Shown here: in pieces, positions 3,223 to 18,192 of the stretch
How the letters are laid out: every line of letters starts with the position of its first letter
How positions within the stretch are numbered: position 1 is the first letter of the stretch
Assembly: GCF_000012645.1 (NCBI RefSeq)
Contig: NC_007577.1
Location: forward strand, 1,054,001 to 1,118,000
DNA length: 64,000 nt
From: Prochlorococcus marinus str. MIT 9312
GTDB taxonomy: Bacteria > Cyanobacteriota > Cyanobacteriia > PCC-6307 > Cyanobiaceae
Reading direction: 5' to 3'
Made by a program: the position numbers and the translations under genes
The notes under the pieces: model-generated
The model's database searches: none
What the model was told of the DNA's origin: nothing
The model's input: the letters and a program-made list of their open reading frames with translations, nothing else

Positions 3223-3256
3223 GTCGGTTAATTCAGCCGACAAATCGCCGACAAAT
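3223..3256 (+). repeat. Arm-type repeats after tRNA-Pro fragment 2
   Basis: GTCGG at 3223, then GCCGACAAA-like repeats at 3236 and 3247 (11-bp period), beginning 74 bp after the fragment end exactly as for fragment 1. Confidence 0.6.
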
Positions 3257-3344
3257 AATGCAGGATTTGTCATGTCAAATCCTGCAATATCCCGCAACTA
3301 TTTAGTCATGGTCTGTAGACATAGTGCCCAAATGGGCTTGTTAA

Positions 3345-3390
3345 GTGCTTTGGGAGCACTAGGTCGCAGGTTCGAATCCTGTCGCCCCGA
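3345..3390 (+). repeat. tRNA-Pro(UGG) 3' fragment, copy 3
   Basis: The same 46 nt as copies 1 and 2, only 182 bp after copy 2. The intervening DNA holds no gene and looks like a nearly empty element. The 3' flank (TTGACTTCTCACGATT...) belongs to a different family, shared with copy 7. Confidence 0.9.
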
Positions 3391-3420
3391 TTGACTTCTC
3401 ACGATTCCTAAATACTCTCT

Positions 3421-3439
3421 GGGCGATCTCTGGGCGATC
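3421..3439 (+). repeat. Arm-type repeats after tRNA-Pro fragment 3
   Basis: GGGCGATC at 3421 and 3432, an 11-bp period, starting 31 bp after the fragment end. Fragments 6 and 7 have their repeat pairs at the same 31-bp distance. Confidence 0.6.
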
Positions 3440-3486
3440 ATTTGCTATACCTTGCTGCACTTTGCATGGTGCATCGCCCGCAATAA

Positions 3487-3612
3487 CTAAAAATAAGAAT
3501 TAAAAATTGAGGTCTTTTTCCAACCCTCATCTAGTAGTTGTTTATATTCTTTTCTTGCAGCCTCAACAGTTTCTACCCTGCTGCCTTTCCTAGCAGTCAG
3601 TCCATAAACCAT
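3487..3612 (-). pseudogene. Truncated DUF1651-like protein
   Basis: A 41-codon reading frame (MVYGLTARKGSRVETVEAA...) matches the C-terminal half of the protein encoded at 34522-34785: basic residues, then a helix EAARKEYKQLLDEGW corresponding to DDARKEYQQLITLGW. The N-terminal half with its WL..P.W motif is missing, so this is probably a decayed second copy. A short functional derivative cannot be excluded. Confidence 0.5.
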
Positions 3613-4238: not shown

Positions 4239-5321
4239 ATGACAACTATTCAGCAGCAGCGTTCTTCGCTGTTAAAGGGTTGGCCACAGTTTTGTGAGTG
4301 GGTAACATCAACTAACAACAGAATTTATGTTGGTTGGTTCGGCGTCTTAATGATCCCATGCCTACTTGCAGCAGCGGCTTGCTTCATCGTTGCATTCATC
4401 GCAGCACCACCAGTAGACATCGACGGAATTAGAGAGCCAGTTGCTGGTTCATTCCTATATGGAAACAACATCATCTCAGGTGCAGTTGTTCCTTCATCCA
4501 ACGCTATTGGTCTACACTTCTACCCAATTTGGGAAGCAGCTACTGTAGATGAGTGGTTATACAACGGTGGTCCTTACCAGCTTGTAATTTTCCACTTCCT
4601 AATCGGTATCTCAGCATACATGGGAAGACAGTGGGAGCTTTCATACCGTTTAGGTATGCGTCCTTGGATCTGTGTTGCATACTCTGCACCAGTTTCAGCA
4701 GCTTTCGCAGTATTTCTTGTATATCCATTCGGTCAAGGTTCATTCTCTGACGGAATGCCTTTAGGTATCTCTGGAACATTCAACTTCATGTTTGTTTTCC
4801 AGGCAGAGCACAACATTCTTATGCACCCATTCCACATGGCTGGTGTTGCTGGTATGTTCGGAGGATCTCTATTCTCAGCTATGCACGGTTCACTTGTTAC
4901 TTCATCTCTAATCAGAGAAACAACTGAGACAGAGTCTCAGAACTATGGTTACAAGTTCGGACAAGAAGAAGAAACATATAACATCGTTGCAGCTCATGGC
5001 TACTTCGGTCGTTTGATCTTCCAATATGCAAGTTTCAACAACAGCAGAAGTCTTCACTTCTTCCTAGCTGTATTCCCAGTTGTTTGTGTATGGTTAACTT
5101 CAATGGGTATCTGCACAATGGCATTCAACCTTAACGGTTTCAACTTCAACCAGTCAGTTGTTGATGCAAACGGTAAGATTGTTCCTACATGGGGTGACGT
5201 TCTTAACAGAGCAAACCTAGGTATGGAAGTAATGCACGAGCGTAACGCTCACAACTTCCCACTTGATCTAGCAGCAGCTGAGTCTACAACAGTAGCTCTT
5301 TCAGCTCCAGCTATCGGTTAA
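4239..5321 (+). CDS. psbA: Photosystem II D1 reaction-centre protein
   Basis: A full-length 360-residue D1 with five transmembrane helices. Visible landmarks are the YzTyr161 region ([15 protein letters not shown]), His198-type chlorophyll ligand and quinone-iron His residues ([15 protein letters not shown] and the [23 protein letters not shown] loop that forms the QB site), and the C-terminal manganese-cluster ligands ([20 protein letters not shown]). The C-terminal extension after Ala is removed by CtpA. It binds P680, pheophytin, QB and the oxygen-evolving cluster in the thylakoid. The rich CTTC/ATC codon choice suggests high expression. It is followed by a strong terminator. Confidence 0.99.
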
Positions 5322-8337: not shown

Positions 8338-8493
8338 GCAATTAAAATTAAAATTATACTTTCTATATTTATATATATTTTATAGAAATCTAACAATTAA
8401 CTTACTAGAGAAAAAAATAAAGACGCAAAGATAGTTTTACGCTGTAGAAAACATATTATTTACTATTTCTATAAATTTGCTACTTTTCTAGAA
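8338..8493. promoter_or_regulatory. Divergent MarR/retron promoter region
   Basis: 156 AT-rich bases between divergent transcription units. It contains TATAGAAATCTA (8381-8392), also found before the WGR-ligase gene at 18249, and a TTCTAGAA palindrome (8486-8493) directly in front of the retron RNA a1 arm. These are plausible operators; the regulator is inferred to be the MarR-like protein. Confidence 0.4.
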
Positions 8494-8718
8494 GTACTTG
8501 ATTTCTAGCAATTAAACCCTGGTGTTTCGCCTGGGTAGCAGTAAAGTCACTCAAACGGCATCGGATACCAATGTCTCTCAGCGAAGAATAGGCCTTAGGC
8601 CATATATCTTTGGCACTGGGACGACTACAGGTAGTCATGCCACGATTTATGGCCTAAGGCCTATTCTTCGCCTACAGTGATCGGCACCGATCTCTGAAGG
8701 ATAGTAGAAATCAGGTAC
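8494..8718 (+). ncRNA. Retron msr-msd non-coding RNA
   Basis: The element has the parts of a retron RNA in order. Arm a1 (GTACTTGATTTCTA, 8494-8507) pairs with a2 (TAGAAATCAGGTAC, 8705-8718) over 14 positions with one G-U. A G at 8508, just after a1, is the candidate priming guanosine. An msr hairpin occupies 8516-8536 (ACCCTGG/CCTGGGT, 7-nt loop). The msd is a 24-bp perfect stem, 8581-8604 with 8648-8671, whose apex folds further (TGGCA with TGCCA; GACTAC at 8623 with GTAGTC at 8631). A last hairpin GATCGG-CA-CCGATC lies at 8679-8692. The first protein gene starts 18 bp after a2. The RNA would template multicopy single-stranded DNA made by the RT encoded at 13348. Exact ends and branch point are inferred. 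Confidence 0.82.
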
Positions 8719-8736
8719 AACCTATTTTCTGAAAAA

Positions 8737-11709
8737 ATGAAGGACTTTAATAATTCAAAGATAAGATTTGCTACTTCTCTTGTCTCAACTAATGATCAAA
8801 GCGCAGGTGGTTACCACTATCAACTTGATACAACCATAAATATATTGGTAGTTAACGATATTGTTGAGAAAGAGAATGGCTTTGAAAGATCAGATAATTT
8901 GGTTTTTAGCGTATTTCACAAGGATTATTATGCTGAAAAAAAGCTAATTTATCTTTATGCAGGACCGACTAATTCAAATATTAAGAGAGGGGCTGATTCT
9001 TTTTCTCTCGTTAGTGATGATTTTGAAAGTCTTCAAAATGTGCCTTTACTTTTAAATGCAATTAAAGATGTTATTAAATCTAATCATAAATGTGTTTATT
9101 TAGATAAAGGTAAGGACGAAACATATGATCCAGTTCCATTTCTTGCAAGGATTGATTCATTATCTAAGACATCATCTATTGTCAGGTTTACTAAGGGGCT
9201 TGATGCAATAAATAATGAAGAACCAAATAATGAATTAAATCTTATTTCTGCTCAAAAATTAAGTGATAAGTTCAAAGATTCAAAAGTGCTAGATAAAAAT
9301 GATATTGAACTTGTAAAAATAATATTTACTACAACCCCACTTACTTTCGGATATTGGGGTACTTTTAAAGCATTGATGAAGAAATTTGATCCCGAACTTT
9401 TGCCAATTGAATTTGGGAAAGCTCTAGCACGTTTATCTGTTCATCCAGGAGCTAAATCGCATGATTCATATCATTACCCCAACTTTAATTTTGAGAATTT
9501 GATCTGGTTAAAAGATATTGTTCCTCTTCCAAATAGAAGAACTATTGATTATCTCGCCCGACGTATGCGAAGAGAATTAAAAAAAATAGGAGATACTAAA
9601 CCAGCATTATATACTTCAGTCGTATCCACAATGCTCATTGAATTTGACTCATGGGATTCACAAATTACAAATAAATCTTTTATTCCTGCTTATGTATTGT
9701 CAGGAAAATATCTTGAGCTTGATGGTTATAGAAAAAGTAGAGTCGTTTATTTACCTCTTTTTCAGCAAAAGCGTTCTGACCCGCATTCAGAGGCATGGAA
9801 TAAAAATATCTCTAAAGTTATAGATATTTTTAATAACGTTAGGAATTCTTCCGAGATATTTAATTTTAGTTATCAAATATTGAAAGATAATAATCAAATA
9901 ATTACAGATCTCACAAAGAATAATGTTTTATTGGCCTTATCTTCTAATTTTGATGAACTTGTATTAATTGCCCTTAAAACAATTCCAAGGTTTTTCAAGG
10001 ATTTATTTAATCAAATATCTGCAGATAATTGGATGATGTTCTTTGAAAGAAGTGATATGAAATCATTTGGGATTTTTATTGATGAGGTGCGTTGTGTTGG
10101 GACCGGAATGGGTAATATCTATCTTTTTAATGCTCTAGAAAAATATTTTTCTGCAAATGTCAAAGATAATATTGAGCGAGCAGCTCCTCTTGCTGGAATG
10201 TATTTAAGGTTTCTTCCTAGATATGTATATAGTGCCGAAAAATTTAGAAAAGTATTAGAACTTGTCACTTCCTTTTATTCATTTAGTAAATCATCAGAAA
10301 TATGGAGAATTTCATTAGATAAAATTCCCTTCAACCTTTTGTTGGCATTTTATTTTGAAATAATTACAAATAAAAATTTTGTTGAAGGTAATTTGGAAAT
10401 AATAGAGGAAGTAATTCTTAGTAAATGTAAATCAAATAAGAGTTATCTTTATGGGTATGGCTATGGTTACAACGATATTTTTATAGAGAGCATAATAAAA
10501 TGTTTTATTTCTGGCGAGAAAAAAGTTGAGGAATTTGGTTGGTTACTATTAAACAAATATCAAGATTCTTCAGATTTAGATCAAAGAAAAATTCAAATAG
10601 AAAGAATTTTCCAGTGGTTGAAAGATACACATTTAGATCCAATAAAAATTCAAATAGAGCCTATGATTCAATGGTTGAAAAATACACATCCATCTTCATA
10701 TTTTTTGGGAGAAAAATGGGAGACTCGCAGAATTGATCTAATAGGTATTCTTCTTGAAAAATATCCTTATTTAAGCGATGAAAAAATTGTAGATATTCTG
10801 ACTGATAATGGATGGTCTCTTACCTCATCAGGAAAGTTATATTTTCTCATAAAAAATGCAAGCCCAATGAAATCTCGAATAATTTGGAATGCACTTGCAA
10901 ATGATAATTCTAATGAAATTAAAGATCTTGTTCTGATAGATAAATCTTTTCTTAAAGTGTTTGGTGATTCAATTAATATTGAGGATCTTTCAAAATGCGG
11001 AAATATCCAACATGAAGTTTTAAAAAAATATATTGAAAATAACCCATCAAGGATAAAAAATGATATTTCTTTTGGTTTGGCTCTCGCAGCAGTTCCTAAT
11101 CCAGCATTGCAGGATATTGCAATCGATCAACTCTTAAAAATAAATGCCTTGCAATCTAAATGGCTTTTACTTGCCGAGATTGGATTACCAAAACCAATTC
11201 TTGCAGCCCGTAAATTTATAGAATCATTATCTGATAAGGAAGAATTAAGTAATTGTATTCTTGCCTCTATCGATAGTTCAGTTTTCACAGTAAGAGATAT
11301 GGGATTGGAACTATTGGATAAAAATTCAGAAATAATTAATAATGAAAAATTACTTGCTTCATTATCAACCTCTGATGATCATAAAGTTCAGGGAAGAGTA
11401 GCAGAAGAACTGCTTATAAGAGAAAGTGATAATCCAGTTTTTGAAGACTTTGATAATCGAATACTTATCACAAGAAGAAGGAATAGAAAGGCTAAGGAAA
11501 AAATTAAGGATCGACTTGATTCGGATTCAAAAATAAAAAATCAAGAAATACTTTCTCCAAAAAGGATAGAGGCATTATTGAATTTAGCTAAAGGTAAAAA
11601 TATTAGAGATAGAGAATGGGCTCTGAATCGGATCGCTTCCCTCAGTATCAAGGGAGTTAGATTTGATGGAATTGAAATAGAAAAGACTAATACAAGGAGA
11701 AATAAATGA
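8737..11709 (+). CDS. Retron-associated ARM/HEAT-like repeat protein
   Basis: 990 residues, largely alpha-helical by eye, with no catalytic motif or membrane segment. The N-terminal 120 residues are a mixed alpha/beta region. The rest reads as helical repeats, for example near residues 200-240 (TFGYWGTFKALMKKFDPELL) and 840-920 (VRDMGLELLDKN and KVQGRVAEELLIRE). It is the first protein gene after the retron RNA and overlaps the SWIM gene by four bases (ATGA). This set fits the ARM protein of type XIII retrons as I remember that class, where it would be part of the effector or sensor complex. Residues about 615-650 hold a tandem duplication of IQIE..IQWLK.TH, also visible in the DNA at 10585-10690. 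Confidence 0.75.
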   Translation: MKDFNNSKIRFATSLVSTNDQSAGGYHYQLDTTINILVVNDIVEKENGFERSDNLVFSVFHKDYYAEKKLIYLYAGPTNSNIKRGADSFSLVSDDFESLQNVPLLLNAIKDVIKSNHKCVYLDKGKDETYDPVPFLARIDSLSKTSSIVRFTKGLDAINNEEPNNELNLISAQKLSDKFKDSKVLDKNDIELVKIIFTTTPLTFGYWGTFKALMKKFDPELLPIEFGKALARLSVHPGAKSHDSYHYPNFNFENLIWLKDIVPLPNRRTIDYLARRMRRELKKIGDTKPALYTSVVSTMLIEFDSWDSQITNKSFIPAYVLSGKYLELDGYRKSRVVYLPLFQQKRSDPHSEAWNKNISKVIDIFNNVRNSSEIFNFSYQILKDNNQIITDLTKNNVLLALSSNFDELVLIALKTIPRFFKDLFNQISADNWMMFFERSDMKSFGIFIDEVRCVGTGMGNIYLFNALEKYFSANVKDNIERAAPLAGMYLRFLPRYVYSAEKFRKVLELVTSFYSFSKSSEIWRISLDKIPFNLLLAFYFEIITNKNFVEGNLEIIEEVILSKCKSNKSYLYGYGYGYNDIFIESIIKCFISGEKKVEEFGWLLLNKYQDSSDLDQRKIQIERIFQWLKDTHLDPIKIQIEPMIQWLKNTHPSSYFLGEKWETRRIDLIGILLEKYPYLSDEKIVDILTDNGWSLTSSGKLYFLIKNASPMKSRIIWNALANDNSNEIKDLVLIDKSFLKVFGDSINIEDLSKCGNIQHEVLKKYIENNPSRIKNDISFGLALAAVPNPALQDIAIDQLLKINALQSKWLLLAEIGLPKPILAARKFIESLSDKEELSNCILASIDSSVFTVRDMGLELLDKNSEIINNEKLLASLSTSDDHKVQGRVAEELLIRESDNPVFEDFDNRILITRRRNRKAKEKIKDRLDSDSKIKNQEILSPKRIEALLNLAKGKNIRDREWALNRIASLSIKGVRFDGIEIEKTNTRRNK

Positions 11710-13346
11710 CTACATTTACTGGAAATTTTACAAGATCAATTTCAGGATCTTCCCCTAATGATAGTTCTGTAACTTTTGGTGTTGATTTAGATCAAGCTCC
11801 TGTTTATCTGAATGTTGATGTTATCCCAAGTTATGCATTTGCTCGATTAATGCTTGTTTTAGGAAATGTAGTAAGAATGCAAGATGCAGGAATTGAAAAG
11901 GATCATTCTACTTATCAAGAATGGGTTAGAGGAGAATATTTGAAAGAATTAAATGATGAAATTAAAGAGAAAAAAGCAAAATTACCAGCTTTATTAGAAA
12001 AGAAAAATAAAATTACAAAGCTATTAAAATCGATTAAAGAAAAGGGTGAAAAGTATGATTCAAAGAATTTTCTTAAGGAAAGAAACACTTTTTGGAAATG
12101 GCTTTATACCCATAATCGACAAGCTTGGTATGTTCTCGACCCTATCGTAAGCGTCCAGCCTGATGCAACTTTTTTTGAAGCATTTTCATTAGATGAATCT
12201 ACATATGCGCGGGTATCGCTTCCTCATTCGGCAACAAAATCTAATAAAAAACCATCATGTGGAACTACTAATATAGATTTCAGTGTCTCGCTTGAAAGGG
12301 AACTTGCAAGGACTAGAAACTATAGACCTTTGCATCTTACTGTAGGTTCAGATTCAGTTGGAGTCGATACTGGAGTTTCTTCTACTGTTGAGAAGAAAAT
12401 AGATCTCCCAGAATCATGGGTAAGAGGATTGGTTGAGGTGCAGGCAGCTTTATCTTTAGCACCAGTTGAGCTGACTTTATCTTCTTCTTATCTTGCTGAT
12501 ATTCTTGCAAGATTAGAATCAGAAAGAGAAAGGGAAGGTCCAAGAGCATTAGTATTTAATATGAAACCCGGAGAAAAGCCTGAAATAGAAATACAACCTT
12601 GGGGAGAAATTCATAAAGTATCTGACAAACTTTATACAGGTGAAGAGAATCGAAAAATTAAAGTCTGGGGAAGACGCAGACTTCGTGTTTTGAGTAATTT
12701 ATTATCGATTGTTCCAGAATTGAAAGTCAGATTAATAGATTCGGGGATGCCATCTTTTTGGAGTATTGAGATAGAGGATGTAGTTTTAACAATTGGTATA
12801 TCTGGATGGACTTCACAAGACTGGGCAGGGAGAGCAAGGTTTTCTGCTATTACTCCTGCATCTGATTTATCTCCAAATATCATTGAAAATGCATCAACTC
12901 TTCTGAAGAAAAAAAATGCTTTATCCGTGGATGAATTAGCAAATAAAATTAATCAGAGCCCTGGAGATTGTCGTCGAATTCTTCAGAGTTTGTGTATTAA
13001 GGGATTAGCCATGTTCGATCCTGAAAATGGAAAATATCGTTGGCGGGCTCTTTTCCCATCTCTAAATCTTGAAAGTCAATCTGAAGCTGGAGTAGAGGAA
13101 AGAAAAGGTTTAGAGATATTCAAGTCAAATAAAATCAAGATAATTTCAGACCAGATAACTTCCAAGGGTCGTGAACTTAAAGGTCTCGTAGAGTCACATG
13201 AAAAAATAAATCAACCTTCCATTATCAAAGATTTGGATGGCCGAGTCATTAATGCGCAATGCGACTGTTCTCATTTTCGATTTCATAAACTTAGACAAGG
13301 ACCTTGTAGACATATTGTTTGCTTAAGCTTGAAGGGAGGTGGATAA
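11706..13346 (+). CDS. Retron-associated winged-helix + SWIM zinc-finger protein
   Basis: 546 residues. An N-terminal region with a Lys/Glu coiled coil (about 75-120) is followed by a beta-rich middle. A winged helix lies near 395-455 (ALSVDELANKINQSPGDCRRILQSLCIKGLAMFD). The C-terminal SWIM zinc finger has C-x-C-x(n)-C-x-H ligands (INAQCDCSHFRF..., then GPCRHIVCL). SWIM domains bind DNA or protein. Winged helix plus SWIM next to an RT is the WHSWIM component I associate with type XIII retrons. Its start overlaps the ARM-like gene and its stop lies one base before the RT start, so the three are one translationally coupled unit. Confidence 0.8.
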   Translation: MTTFTGNFTRSISGSSPNDSSVTFGVDLDQAPVYLNVDVIPSYAFARLMLVLGNVVRMQDAGIEKDHSTYQEWVRGEYLKELNDEIKEKKAKLPALLEKKNKITKLLKSIKEKGEKYDSKNFLKERNTFWKWLYTHNRQAWYVLDPIVSVQPDATFFEAFSLDESTYARVSLPHSATKSNKKPSCGTTNIDFSVSLERELARTRNYRPLHLTVGSDSVGVDTGVSSTVEKKIDLPESWVRGLVEVQAALSLAPVELTLSSSYLADILARLESEREREGPRALVFNMKPGEKPEIEIQPWGEIHKVSDKLYTGEENRKIKVWGRRRLRVLSNLLSIVPELKVRLIDSGMPSFWSIEIEDVVLTIGISGWTSQDWAGRARFSAITPASDLSPNIIENASTLLKKKNALSVDELANKINQSPGDCRRILQSLCIKGLAMFDPENGKYRWRALFPSLNLESQSEAGVEERKGLEIFKSNKIKIISDQITSKGRELKGLVESHEKINQPSIIKDLDGRVINAQCDCSHFRFHKLRQGPCRHIVCLSLKGGG

Positions 13347-13347
13347 G

Positions 13348-14796
13348 ATGTCAGAACAAGATGCGGACCAAAGTAATTCTTTGAATAATCAATGGAAAAA
13401 AAGATTACAAGAGATAGGGCAGGGGGCTTTTGAATTTGAAGAAATGCTCCGTTTAGGCTTCATTGATTTGGATACTATTAAGCGTTTCGATAAAGAAATG
13501 ACTATTGAGGAATCTAAAGAAGTTTTTGAACAGTTAACTAAAACCAGTGCAATATTAAGTGAAGTTGATAAAGAAATAAATTCCATTAATCGTATAGAGG
13601 AACTTCTCGCAGAAATAAGATCTCGAAGAATAAAAAGAGTTAAGGAGGCTGCTAAAGAAAAGAAAATTAAGAAGCAAGAGGAAAAGATTAAACGGTCGAA
13701 AGAAATTAAAGAACGAAAAATTAATTCCCCAACATTTTTGGGGAGAGGGGTTTCAAATAGACTTAGTTTTGAAAAAGTTAAAAAGGTAGATTTTAAATCC
13801 AATAAAATTCCTGAACTTAATTCTTTTGTTGATGTAGCTAATGCTTTAGAGGTAACTCCATCCAAATTGCAATGGCTTATTTATGAAAGAGGTGCAAGTA
13901 ATATTGATCATTATTTAAGATATGAGATACCAAAAAAATCAGGAGGTAAGAGATTAATTTCCAGTCCAAAGAAAGATATGAAAAAAGCTCAGAAATGGAT
14001 CTTGGAAAATATTTTAATTAACCTTGATGTTGATAAAGCGGCTATGGCTTTTCAAAAAGGTTTATCAATTATTGATAATGCATCCTTACATGTCAAATCA
14101 AAAATTATAGTCCGTATAGATATAAAAGACTTTTTCCCTACTATCACTTTTCCCCGTGTAAGAGGTTTTTTCGAATCTTTAGGTTATAACCCTGGTGTTG
14201 CAACTGTCTTTGCATTGATTTGTACGGATAGTCCTAAAGTAATACTTAAGCAGGAAGCGATAGATGGAGACAAAAACAATAAAGATTATCCTCATTTTAT
14301 AGCTATTAGTGAGAGGTCACTGCCTCAAGGTGCGTGTACTTCACCATCATTAGCTAATCTTATTTGCAGAAAAATTGACTCACGTCTTAATGGATATTCT
14401 TCAAAATCTGGATGGAAATATTCTAGATATGCAGATGATTTAATTTTTTCTACTACCTCTGAAGACAGCTATCCTCATAGATTAATAAAATCAATTTCAT
14501 CGATAATATCTGAAGAAGGTTTTAAGGTAAATCAATCAAAAACAAGATTGATGCGCGCACCTAATCGACAAACTGTTACTGGTTTAGTTGTTAATAATGA
14601 AGTAACTCTTAGCAGAAGAGATTTAAAACGAATGCGTGCATTTTTTCATCAATGTTCTTCTAAAGGTTTAGATTTCATGAGTGAGAAAATTGGTAAAGAT
14701 GCATTATCTGTAGCGCGTGGATATATCTCATATGTCGAAATGGTTTCACCTACAATTGCAGAAAAATTTCTTTCAACCAATTCCTGGATAAAATAA
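13348..14796 (+). CDS. Retron reverse transcriptase
   Basis: 482 residues. A basic coiled-coil extension (to about 130) precedes a complete RT domain. Motifs in order: KKSGGKRLISSP (RT1); the retron-specific NAxxH (DNASLHV, about 243); RIDIKDFFPTIT with the first catalytic Asp; SLPQGACTSPSLANLI; YADDLIFS with the catalytic Asp pair (about 361-364); and the retron-specific VTGLVVN (about 410). RT with NAxxH and VTG copies part of its cognate RNA into msDNA primed from a 2'-OH. I chose ATG 13348, one base after the preceding stop and eight bases after GGAGG, over GTG 13339. All catalytic residues are intact. The template RNA lies 4.6 kb upstream at the head of the operon. Confidence 0.95.
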   Translation: MSEQDADQSNSLNNQWKKRLQEIGQGAFEFEEMLRLGFIDLDTIKRFDKEMTIEESKEVFEQLTKTSAILSEVDKEINSINRIEELLAEIRSRRIKRVKEAAKEKKIKKQEEKIKRSKEIKERKINSPTFLGRGVSNRLSFEKVKKVDFKSNKIPELNSFVDVANALEVTPSKLQWLIYERGASNIDHYLRYEIPKKSGGKRLISSPKKDMKKAQKWILENILINLDVDKAAMAFQKGLSIIDNASLHVKSKIIVRIDIKDFFPTITFPRVRGFFESLGYNPGVATVFALICTDSPKVILKQEAIDGDKNNKDYPHFIAISERSLPQGACTSPSLANLICRKIDSRLNGYSSKSGWKYSRYADDLIFSTTSEDSYPHRLIKSISSIISEEGFKVNQSKTRLMRAPNRQTVTGLVVNNEVTLSRRDLKRMRAFFHQCSSKGLDFMSEKIGKDALSVARGYISYVEMVSPTIAEKFLSTNSWIK

Positions 14797-14806
14797 TTCA
14801 AAATAA

Positions 14807-15370
14807 ATGTCTAAAAAATTCCCAATATTATTTCCCGAATTGCTTGCTGATTTTGAATTAATTAAAGGTTCAAGTGATGATCCTGATGAAACTGATTATG
14901 AATGGAATGAAGGGAATTTAAATTTCAAAGTTAAAGAATATTCGCCTGATGACTATATTCCTTCTGAATATAATGTTTTGAAGTATAAAAATAAATTCTA
15001 TAAATGTGCATTTGATGGTCACGTAATCGATGGGTATTTATCAGAAGAACTTTTTGATGAATATGAAGAAACTTACTTTGATGAAGAAGATACTTGTGCA
15101 GGTGAATGGATAAAGATTTATAAAAATTCAAGCAGAGAAGATATTCCTGAAGGCTCTTATTTATTTGAAATACCTTCTATAGAAGAAATTATTGACGGTG
15201 GGGAAAAAGAAATAAATGAATACATATCAGAAGATCATGAAATTGTTACTGAATGGGTTGATGAGATAGATGAAGAGGATTTCAAAAATATTCTTTATGG
15301 CGTTTACGGATTTGGAAGAGAAGTTTTATTTGATGATGAATTTGTAATTAAAAAAAGATATAACGGTTAG
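14807..15370 (+). CDS. Acidic hypothetical protein following the retron RT
   Basis: 187 residues, extremely acidic (Asp/Glu through most of the sequence), no Cys clusters or membrane segments, rich in Tyr. It starts 10 bp after the RT stop, so it may be a fourth gene of the retron operon. It could equally belong to the pool of acidic island proteins. The composition resembles DNA-mimic or anti-DNA-binding proteins, but that is speculation from charge alone. Confidence 0.6.
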   Translation: MSKKFPILFPELLADFELIKGSSDDPDETDYEWNEGNLNFKVKEYSPDDYIPSEYNVLKYKNKFYKCAFDGHVIDGYLSEELFDEYEETYFDEEDTCAGEWIKIYKNSSREDIPEGSYLFEIPSIEEIIDGGEKEINEYISEDHEIVTEWVDEIDEEDFKNILYGVYGFGREVLFDDEFVIKKRYNG

Positions 15371-15423
15371 AAATTATTATTACCATCTAAGTACCAGTCG
15401 TCGGCATATCCTTTATCAGAGCC

Positions 15424-15846
15424 TTAATGCGTTTGAGTAAATTCTTCCTGTTCTTTGACAGAATCAATTAAACAATCATAAAAAAAACTCTCATCGTAAA
15501 CTTTATTTACTAGAAATAACAATGCTCTTGAATATTCCTCATCCTCTAGGTCGTCTATAAATTCAAATATCAATTCTCTCTTTTTATGCCTATCTTCAGG
15601 TTCTTGATTTTCAATTTCTTTATACTCTTCTGGATAAAATTCAGATACATATTCATTCCATATTTCAGGCAAACCTAAATCGCCTGTGTCATGATCATAT
15701 AAAACTCTTTCAATCCAAGTCATTCCTAAATCATCTGGCCACAAGTCTTCCCATATATAAGAAATCTTTTCATCATCATTCAAGGATTTAAACTCTGCAT
15801 CAGTCCTCACCCTAACTTCATCAGATCCTATTTTAAAGATAAACAT
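15424..15846 (-). CDS. Acidic hypothetical protein
   Basis: 140 residues, acidic, beginning with a short strand-rich region (MFIFKIGSDEVRVRTDAEF) and continuing with helices rich in Glu, Asp and Tyr. It is 13 bp downstream of the 15860-17047 gene and so is probably cotranscribed with it. It converges on the retron operon with only 53 bp between stops. Family not recognised. Confidence 0.6.
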   Translation of the reverse strand: MFIFKIGSDEVRVRTDAEFKSLNDDEKISYIWEDLWPDDLGMTWIERVLYDHDTGDLGLPEIWNEYVSEFYPEEYKEIENQEPEDRHKKRELIFEFIDDLEDEEYSRALLFLVNKVYDESFFYDCLIDSVKEQEEFTQTH

Positions 15847-15859
15847 TTTTTATGATCCC

Positions 15860-17047
15860 TTAATAATCTGCATAAACATGAAAATCTCCAAGTTTTAAAG
15901 TGTCATAACAGTCATAATAAATACATTCAAAATCCTCTTCAAATAAATATGAATTAATATTTGCTTCCCTGTTAATGTATTCATCATCAACCTTTATACA
16001 TATTAAACAATTAGAACTTTGAAAATATCTTCCTCCTTTATCATCTTGAAAAGAACTTTCATCAATCATTGGCAAAATGTATAAAAAACTAGAACCATCT
16101 GATTTCTTTTTTAATCCGCATAAATAAAAATCTTGTGAATTATTATCTTTTTTAGATTTATAAATGTCTAATTTTTTATTTTCATTATCATTTAAATCTT
16201 CTATATATATAGGTAAGCCTAAATCTTCATCAACTTCATCAAATGATTTAAATCTTTCAAGAGCTTTCAATTCATCTACTAAATTTTTATCTGCTATAGG
16301 AAGACATTTAGATAAATCACCAATAATATATTTTCCTTTACTTAATTTCCCTATCTTTTGAGCAGATGGGAAAAGATGATCCTTGATTGATTGACCATTA
16401 TTTTTTGCAGTCTCTAATGCATTTCTATGTTCTTTTAAAAATTCATCAAGGTTTGCTATTTCTTCACCATTTTTATTAAGGGAAATATATCCATATTTTT
16501 TGATGTTTTCATATTTTGGAAGAATATCTGATTTAATTTTTTTGAGCAATTCATCTCCTCTAAGTTTTTTGTTTTTTGAATAATCTATTTTATATTCAGG
16601 AAAATCTTTTGGTAATTGCCTTCCATTTGGATATTCATTTTTGCATGATCTCTCCCAACACTTTTTAAAAATTTTTAGGATCATCTCTATATCAAGTTCG
16701 GACTTAAATTCTTCATAGCTTTTATAAGGGCAACTATATGTATCACCTATATAAAAAAGCCATGTTTCATTATCACCCTCTAATGGGTCGGCAACAGCTT
16801 CTTGATATCTGGTCTCTAAATAATCTAGAACTCCTTCATAAGTGCTGACCCAATCAAATAGAGAAGAAAATTCTTCATCTAAAAAAGTTTCATCTACTCC
16901 ATAAGCATCAGGATCGGAATCATTTAGAAAAATTGAGATTGCTGAATATGTCGCAGATGAAATTCTTTTTTCATGAAAATATGTACAAATTTCACTTTCA
17001 TATGCCTTCAAATGAATATAGAAAGAGTATATGGAAACTGGTTTCAT
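15860..17047 (-). CDS. Large acidic island-family protein
   Basis: 395 residues. The start (MKPVSIYSFYIHL) matches the 5433-6221 protein. The module IGDTYSCPYKSYEEFKSELDIEMILKIFKKCWERSCKNE (about 115-155) is the shared C.Y...W.R.C module of this island family. The C-terminal 150 residues form an acidic beta-like region with SSFLYILPMIDES and CICIK-like strands, resembling SMI1/KNR4-type immunity folds only vaguely. Downstream of the WGR-ligase gene with a 50-bp gap. Function unknown. Confidence 0.6.
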   Translation of the reverse strand: MKPVSIYSFYIHLKAYESEICTYFHEKRISSATYSAISIFLNDSDPDAYGVDETFLDEEFSSLFDWVSTYEGVLDYLETRYQEAVADPLEGDNETWLFYIGDTYSCPYKSYEEFKSELDIEMILKIFKKCWERSCKNEYPNGRQLPKDFPEYKIDYSKNKKLRGDELLKKIKSDILPKYENIKKYGYISLNKNGEEIANLDEFLKEHRNALETAKNNGQSIKDHLFPSAQKIGKLSKGKYIIGDLSKCLPIADKNLVDELKALERFKSFDEVDEDLGLPIYIEDLNDNENKKLDIYKSKKDNNSQDFYLCGLKKKSDGSSFLYILPMIDESSFQDDKGGRYFQSSNCLICIKVDDEYINREANINSYLFEEDFECIYYDCYDTLKLGDFHVYADY

Positions 17048-17097
17048 TTTTAAAAATATCTAGTCAGATTAATCCGGTTCTAATTAAAAAAAATCAT

Positions 17098-18192
17098 TTA
17101 ATCTTTTTTATATTTAAGCTGAGAAATTACAGCTGCAGTTTCATCTAGATCATTACGCTTTCCTTTATAAATAGGTTGAAAAAGAGCACCATCTTTAATG
17201 GCATATAGATAATCCACTTCAATTAATTCGCCTGGATTTGGAATATCTTGATTAGCAGGAACCGTACACTTACCTACAGATATCCAAATTCCATTATCAT
17301 TTATTTCGATAGATACAGAACGCTTACCTTCCGTAATTGAAGAGACACGCAGCGTGGCACTTTCTACAAATTTAAGCTTAAGAGCGTTTCCTCCAGAACT
17401 TGGTCTGCCTTCGTTGTATGTTGCATCTCCATTTTTAAAAACAACTCCCTCTTCATTTTTTGATTTTGCGCTTTCTACAAAATCTTTAACTTTTTCTAAG
17501 CTATCTGCAATGGTTGGGTAATCAACTTTTAAAGCATTATCAAGTTTTTTTGATTTGATTTCTTCTCCAAGTTTCTCAAGATAAGTAACACGATCGCTAA
17601 ATGAATTTTCTTTAGTTTCCAAGCCTTTGAACTTGAGAACATCAAAGATAACTAAATGATCCCCCATGTCTTCAGAATCTATTTCTGTATCTATAAACCC
17701 TCCGTCTTTTAGTTTTTCCAGTGCATCCTGAATAGGTTTCTGCAAACCTACTCGCAAACCTTTGCGGTTAGATGCAATGATTTCTGAGTTATTAATACTT
17801 GCGCCCCTACGTTCTCCATCATGTTTTGTCTGCATATAAACTCTAGAAAAATTATTGAAAAGTTCTTCAAGATTTTCATTATTAATCGGGTTTAATAATT
17901 GAGGTTTAAAGTCAGTAGATTCTCCAGCTTTTTCTGTCTCTGCATACTCAACTGAACTATCTTCAGGTGCATATCCCTTTGAGGTTTTTGATAGTACTAA
18001 CTTGTCATATATTTTTTTCGCATCATCATAAGTAGCAGGAGTTTTTGTTTTTGTCCCACTTTGGAGGGGTTTTCCTCTTCGACCATATTGAAAGGTCACA
18101 TTAAAACCACCATCAACTTCCTTTAGTTCTGCTTGATAAACTTTGTCAGATGAACCCTCTGTGAAAGATAAAGATATTTTTTCGTTTTTCAT
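17098..18192 (-). CDS. WGR-domain ATP-dependent DNA ligase
   Basis: 364 residues. Residues 1-75 form a WGR domain (Y.AEL...VTFQYGRRGKPLQSGTKT), a nucleic-acid-binding module known from PARPs and some bacterial ligases. From about 105 comes an ATP-dependent ligase core: motif I TKHDGER (Lys forms the AMP adduct), motif Ia SNRKG, motif III FIDTEID, motif IV EEGVVFK, motif V ALKLKF. A short OB-like C-terminus follows (VGKCTVP...EVDYLYA). It should seal nicks in DNA; cyanobacteria rely on an NAD-dependent LigA for replication, so this one is accessory. The compact size resembles phage and mobile-element ligases. Operators seem to lie just upstream (18211-18272). Confidence 0.88.
   Translation of the reverse strand: MKNEKISLSFTEGSSDKVYQAELKEVDGGFNVTFQYGRRGKPLQSGTKTKTPATYDDAKKIYDKLVLSKTSKGYAPEDSSVEYAETEKAGESTDFKPQLLNPINNENLEELFNNFSRVYMQTKHDGERRGASINNSEIIASNRKGLRVGLQKPIQDALEKLKDGGFIDTEIDSEDMGDHLVIFDVLKFKGLETKENSFSDRVTYLEKLGEEIKSKKLDNALKVDYPTIADSLEKVKDFVESAKSKNEEGVVFKNGDATYNEGRPSSGGNALKLKFVESATLRVSSITEGKRSVSIEINDNGIWISVGKCTVPANQDIPNPGELIEVDYLYAIKDGALFQPIYKGKRNDLDETAAVISQLKYKKD

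Follow-up and report, generated by a model that had tools for sequence, protein, structure and literature searches.

A putative type XIII retron RNA in Prochlorococcus marinus heads an ARM-SWIM-RT operon, and its relatives accompany effector genes even where the reverse transcriptase gene lies elsewhere

Passages of PMC6868368 describe retrons as compact cassettes, the RNA and the reverse transcriptase (RT) gene of which travel together. In Prochlorococcus marinus str. MIT 9312, the original prediction placed a retron RNA at the head of an operon, about 4.6 kb away from its RT gene and separated from it by two large genes, and the coordinates agree with this description. The locus raises the questions of whether this interval is a retron RNA and with which genes such RNAs are associated. 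The window analysed here is a 64-kb stretch of the 1,709,204-base single-contig genome, and positions refer to it unless a locus is named. Our favoured reading, to which we assign a probability of roughly 85%, is that the interval 8494-8718 on the plus strand encodes the msr-msd, or template RNA, of a type XIII retron of the ARM subtype, acting by the mechanism proposed below. It draws on the anatomy of the RNA, on folding and on comparison with related loci.

All the components of the operon are on the plus strand. The RNA is followed by the genes of a HEAT/ARM-repeat protein, the presumed effector (8737-11709; ARM; PADLOC HEAT-ARM_XIII, helical solenoid model), of a SWIM zinc-finger protein with a predicted sliding-clamp (PCNA) fold (11706-13346; PADLOC SWIM_XIII, VIA-align) and of a type XIII retron RT (13339-14796; RT_XIII, motifs), and then by orf187 (14807-15370; 187 residues). 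The ARM, SWIM and RT genes overlap by 4 and 8 nucleotides, and a gap of 10 nucleotides follows the RT gene. The ARM start codon is 18 nucleotides past the end of the a2 arm of the RNA, as predicted, and the RT start is 4,620 nucleotides past it. No family match was found for orf187 in profile searches, and its sole match among 20 loci compared is in L027. The 9.7-kb block 8476-18192, in which orf187 is included, is 93% identical between the window and genome G004, and no long match between the two extends it to the left. The block begins at the retron RNA, 18 nucleotides before a1; on the right, it ends at the start of the 17098-18192 gene. The stretch directly 5' of a1 (8476-8493), conserved in that the G004 homology starts at its first position, may hold the promoter; a scan for the sigma-70 consensus detected no promoter there. 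Two further genes are found on the minus strand. The gene at 17098-18192, in the same G004-shared block, codes for a protein with WGR and ATP-dependent DNA ligase domains (Pfam E values of 4e-9 and 8e-12, respectively), and that at 15860-17047 codes for a 395-residue protein without family match, which was detected in this genome and two others out of 60 from the genus.

By its anatomy, 8494-8718 is a complete msr-msd, that is, a retron RNA. The a1 arm (8494-8507) pairs with the a2 arm (8705-8718) over 14 positions, with one G-U pair, and is followed by the presumed priming (branch) guanosine at 8508 in a TAGC motif, the commonest retron priming site according to a section of PMC6868368. The predicted msr hairpin, SL1 (8517-8535), has an 8-bp stem and a UUU loop and resembles the element bound by the Eco1 RT, as depicted in the same section (PMC6868368); its pairing is seen over 13 RNAs. 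A long-range stem, the 5' strand of which (8560-8572) pairs with 8680-8691, encloses the msd. The latter consists of a perfect stem of 24 Watson-Crick pairs (5' arm, 8581-8604; 3' arm, 8648-8671), as had been noticed, with a 43-nucleotide apex (8605-8647) defined by folding, and of a 3' segment (8672-8704) that harbours a CTACAGTGA sequence conserved in the alignment and the 3' strand of the long-range stem. cDNA synthesis would be expected to start near 8704. The features by which retron RNAs are recognized are thus all present, namely a1/a2 arms ending at a (T)AGC priming guanosine, an msr with a hairpin in the range expected for retrons (one to three of ~7-10 bp; SL1 has 8 bp) and a long msd hairpin. 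In the alignment, the priming site is AGC in 9 of 13 rows and GGC in L059; L062 and the two RNAs of L065 (L065a and L065b) are misaligned at this column, with a GGC (L062) or a TTAGC (L065, in two places) nearby. The predicted fold of 8480-8740 has an energy of -106.5 kcal/mol, compared with a mean of -63.4 for shuffled sequences (z score of -9.39; none of 200 shuffles as low), and no uninterrupted stem exceeds 12 bp among 60 mononucleotide shuffles, versus 24 bp in the window. Rfam yielded no match above gathering score in the window, and the five matches of a permissive Rfam scan of 8400-8800 are all under their gathering scores.

Retron types were reportedly defined by Mestre et al. in 2020. 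The assignment to type XIII is based on PADLOC models, as the ARM, SWIM and RT proteins all match those of this type, and so do the proteins of relatives L063 and L031; the RT_XIII, SWIM_XIII and HEAT-ARM_XIII/WGR_XIII components that define membership are all found. RT_XIII is the best PADLOC model for the RT (E value of 7e-146), followed by RT_other (5e-91). The residues N247, A248 and H251 (NAxxH), Y364-D367 (YADD) and V413-G415 (VTG) are invariant in nine RTs, with region X (NAxxH) and region Y (VTG) taken as in the motif definitions given in part of PMC6868368. Ec86 is the closest solved RT by sequence (E value of 1e-53), and in the type XIII profile this match starts at around residue 147, indicating that the type XIII RT has approximately 150 extra N-terminal residues. 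The Eco1 (Ec86) retron also differs by its partner genes, which are unlike those in the window. Compared with type XIII as represented in PADLOC, the RNA family described here occupies two main positions, ahead of ARM or after SWIM, and its RT gene can be unlinked from it. A literature search retrieved no paper on type XIII retrons by title.

The ARM protein has partial matches of approximately 150 residues with HEAT-ARM_XIII and WGR_XIII (E values of 9e-13 and 7e-11), and profiles of the ARM and WGR_XIII-type proteins match each other with an hhalign probability of 99.2 at 13% identity, a match possibly helped by the helical-repeat nature that they share. A fold search with ARM returned generic HEAT proteins (best E value of 6e-5, TM-scores of at most 0.26 among the matches listed), and hence no specific function can be read from it. 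In the ARM-type operons of L062 (2081-3373, by similarity) and L065 (7859-8818, by Pfam), a WGR domain is encoded by a separate gene, which suggests fusion or fission events with the ARM protein; in L062, the WGR gene sits between the RNA and ARM. For its part, the SWIM protein matches SWIM_XIII with an E value of 3.6e-158, and C519, C521, C534 and H536 are invariant in 16 proteins. It is predicted to adopt a PCNA/sliding-clamp fold, a claim based on one model (AlphaFold, 16 sequences; mean pLDDT of 70, pTM of 0.51). This model matches PCNA and beta clamps in Foldseek (E value of 5e-9), and VIA-align superimposes its residues 34-369 on a clamp with a Z score of 19.9 and an rmsd of 2.6-3.1 Å over ~230 aligned residues. 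The SWIM protein is predicted to share the fold of PCNA and beta clamps over this segment and differs from them by an additional C-terminal SWIM zinc finger; sequence searches with it gave no clamp match, and its winged-helix matches are weak and below threshold. Among the papers listed by a literature search on clamps and retrons, two on medical subjects contain PCNA together with a single mention of 'retron'.

To see with what the RNA is associated elsewhere, we collected related loci. A single-protein query (P0003) found no relative in the genome or viral contigs. A search with an RT alignment yielded 76 loci in named genomes and 65 viral loci (L124-L188), and 22 of the 76 genome loci (L048-L069) were read for the genes that they contain. 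The RNA model R1 was run on 74 sources, including L052-L102, and L103-L123 were covered by motif pattern only. Within the genus, 5 of 266 genomes have SWIM_XIII, counting this one; within the cyanobacterial phylum, 19 of 386 have it. Upstream sequence could be read for 12 ARM-SWIM-RT operons (the window, L027, L028, L030, L043, L057, L059, L060, L062, L063, L064 and L065), which include members of the Armatimonadota and Bacteroidota, and in every one of them the RNA is upstream of ARM. The a2 arm is 4.4-7.0 kb from the RT gene in these operons. Neither R1 nor a search for inverted repeats found an alternative msr-msd near the RT gene: the sole R1 match in the window is at 8489-8722, and 13200-15900 contains just two AT-rich inverted repeats of 14 nucleotides. 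In L065, two related tandem RNAs with differing stems precede a single ARM gene (1905-2570), and each appears by inspection to have its own a1/a2 arms.

In the RT relatives that lack an ARM match (L052-L056, L058 and L061), no such RNA is seen within the sequence stretches covered, that of L052 ending just before its RT gene; with the filters of R1 turned off, the best match in these seven loci is AT-rich, without the RNA body (14.6 bits, E value of 0.03). Thus, the RT alone does not predict the RNA. R1 detected SL1-like fragments in L068 and L069 (18.5 and 17.2 bits, respectively), and R2, a second RNA model described below, had no match in L067-L069. The RTs of L053, L054-L056, L058 and L061, devoid of ARM match and RNA, are 41-43% identical to that of the window. 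SWIM is missing as well in six of the seven or so ARM-less loci, and L053 retains it. As judged from these stretches, lone type XIII-like RTs exist, also in Bacteroidota.

A second position of the RNA was revealed in other cyanobacteria. With model R2, which was trained on five of the loci L031-L040, we found the RNA 3' of SWIM in all ten of these loci. It starts between -2 and +42 nucleotides from the SWIM stop codon in eight of them, and 0.87 and 2.2 kb past SWIM in the other two. A WGR gene precedes SWIM in nine of the ten; L039 has no WGR match within its stretch. In L035, two copies of R2-type RNAs are found downstream of SWIM, on the minus strand (3246-3540 and 4572-4820). In two other members of the phylum, L042 (genome G283) and L215 (G303), the RNA adjoins the RT gene. 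The RNA of the ARM-type locus L057 (E value of 1e-11) is matched by R2 as well, as is a Methylobacterium plasmid (L047). Both were outside its training set, which suggests that the two groups of RNAs are homologous.

Of 386 cyanobacterial genomes, 14 have strong SWIM_XIII matches (E value <1e-150), and these same 14 are the ones with full-length type XIII RTs (E value <1e-170), both searches having apparently used the same draw. The thresholds were chosen after the match lists had been seen and leave out weaker SWIM matches in five further genomes and partial RT matches in six. The naive probability of this co-occurrence, which ignores shared ancestry, is 7e-26. In 7 of the 14 genomes, 28 kb or more separate the RT gene from the RNA: it is 28 kb away in G609, at least 30, 35, 80 and 93 kb away in G571, G472, G273 and G432, respectively (distances to contig ends), and on a different long contig in G393, and in G559 the RT and SWIM genes are ~638 kb apart on one contig. 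G303 is also split over different contigs and is too fragmented to be counted. R2 found no match in the RT-containing stretches of the seven split genomes (L208-L214). The separation in these genomes implies that RT and RNA act in trans. The comparison of genomes shows that the conserved feature is the linkage of the RNA to the effector genes, and that the RT gene sits elsewhere in some relatives.

These layouts bear on whether the distance to the RT gene has any meaning. In an ordinary retron layout, the RNA might come first by chance, and open reading frames between the msr-msd and RT are indeed described in part of PMC6868368 for Eco3 (Ec73), Sen2 (St85) and Vch2 (Vc81). Here, however, two large genes intervene, over 4.4-7.0 kb, and in seven relatives the RNA stays with SWIM while the RT gene is at least 28 kb off. 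As the separation recurs, it is not the accident of one operon, and we consider chance placement a somewhat unlikely explanation.

The original prediction also proposed that the RNA is made as the 5' leader of the effector mRNA, which could couple the level of msDNA to effector expression. The first part fits the picocyanobacterial operons, in all five of which the a2 arm ends 15-21 nucleotides before the ARM start; no terminator-like site is found between RNA and ARM in the window, and we infer that in picocyanobacteria the RNA heads the operon transcript. If the RNA were a leader regulator, folding of a1/a2 and of the msd would gate ARM translation, and reverse transcription would switch the effector. 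The short spacing and the window fold, which pairs bases up to just before the ATG, are compatible with this idea, but conservation of the latter pairing was judged by eye only, and other layouts speak against it. The gaps between RNA and ARM are 290 and 569 nucleotides in the Aureivirga loci L063 and L064; the RNA of L063 is followed by a terminator-like hairpin, and a similar one is visible in L064 although it is absent from the list of the terminator scan; moreover, the RNAs of L031-L040 are 3' of SWIM. Leader coupling is therefore not a conserved property, the proposed link between msDNA and effector expression is not generally supported and would at most be a local one, and a leader regulator appears quite improbable to us. 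Of note, the gap that separates the retron RNA from ARM in L063 contains a Flavo-1 RNA (Rfam RF01705; 4182-4260).

An alignment of 13 RNAs was built by sequence only and submitted to RNAalifold, which predicted 25 pairs, 16 of which are kept with a double change. The predicted structure consists of SL1 and of the long-range stem around the msd. In SL1, 95.2% of the cells are paired and three of the eight pairs show double changes; in the long-range stem (8560-8572/8680-8691), 92.3% are paired and nine of the ten pairs show them. Compensatory changes between homologous loci thus support both elements. Together, their cells are paired in 93.6% of cases, with 51 double-change cells versus 17.4 after shuffling and a covariation score of 0.614 versus 0.275 for shuffled and 0.06-0.143 for slid alignments, an excess that is partly expected because the structure, including the long-range stem, was derived from the alignment in which the pairs were then counted.

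The GATCGG-CA-CCGATC hairpin of the original prediction fared differently. The string is present at 8679-8692 (alignment columns 260-273) and can pair locally in the window, where both foldings are possible (six of six local pairs, nine of ten long-range pairs). Comparison does not support the local pairing, with 71.8% of the cells paired over the 13 RNAs, a value reached by 85 of 500 shuffles, and a covariation score of 0.321 and double-change cells reached by 35 and 32 of 500 shuffles, respectively. This local hairpin scores above its slid versions, and the local SL2 has 76.9% of its cells paired versus 92.3% for the long-range stem. We set it aside as a conserved pairing, as it is not clearly above shuffles and the long-range partner is better; as far as the alignment can tell, it may be an alternative folding in some members.

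Another complementarity was observed between the msr/msd junction (CTCAGCG-like) and the msd apex (CGCTGAG-like) in L028, L030, L057, L060, L065a and the window, where TCTCAG at 8576-8581 is complementary to 8616-8621. In shuffle tests, its p value is at most 0.01 in L028, L030, L057, L060 and L065a; in the window it is not above chance (0.15), and the values for L027, L043, L065b, L059 and L062 are 0.13, 0.37, 0.39, 0.42 and 0.86, respectively. The combined p value is 1e-6 for nine chosen lineages, with mononucleotide shuffles. Tentatively, it may represent an alternative pairing near the expected stop of reverse transcription.

That the long palindrome is a terminator, a transposon end or a replication palindrome unrelated to RT, as its position on the border of a variable cassette could suggest (the G004-shared block starts 18 nucleotides before a1), is hardly credible, because a1/a2, the branch site, SL1 and the long-range stem all recur in the same place across phyla and the region has no terminator-like site.

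In the 13 RNAs, the longest uninterrupted stems of the msd all have 18-44 pairs, nearly all Watson-Crick; according to a passage of PMC6868368, msd stems generally hold mismatched or wobble pairs. Over three close pairs of RNAs, and leaving out the apex, 27 of 140 sites differ in the stem arms versus 17 of 450 elsewhere in the RNA (Fisher p = 3e-8). The identity of the stem arms versus that of the other RNA parts is 81.2% versus 97.9% between the window and L027, 73.7% versus 96.6% between L028 and L030 and 85.2% versus 94.3% between L063 and L064, and the corresponding SWIM coding sequences are 92.4%, 85.0% and 88.3% identical, respectively. Both sides are altered in 13 of the 14 changed stem pairs. 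In these alignments, the msd stem is thus diverging faster than the other parts of the RNA, with its pairing maintained.

By analogy with other retrons, we propose that the RT recognizes SL1, primes from G8508 and starts near 8704, which would yield an msDNA of ~120-130 nucleotides with a perfect 24-bp DNA duplex. This ribonucleoprotein would be bound by both the HEAT/ARM protein and the SWIM protein with its predicted clamp, and the clamp fold could plausibly hold an uninterrupted duplex whatever its sequence. Such a sequence-blind grip would explain a stem that changes fast and yet remains paired. As proposed for other retrons, tampering of a phage with the msDNA or with replication would release the effector, and growth would stop, as in abortive defence; the retron is likely an antiviral element on this analogy. 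A broader proposal, which we put forward at somewhat less than even odds, is that type XIII retrons are bipartite and trans-acting, with the RNA beside HEAT/WGR solenoid and PCNA-fold genes and the RT possibly hundreds of kb away, and that the clamp grips the msDNA duplex irrespective of sequence while the stem turns over in paired form.

As the RNA accompanies the effector genes and the RT is far away in seven genomes, surveys restricted to the flanks of RT genes would overlook RNAs of this kind and would take a wrong view of WGR-SWIM loci devoid of RT. The predicted clamp fold in a retron partner provides a concrete hypothesis for the role of the msDNA duplex.
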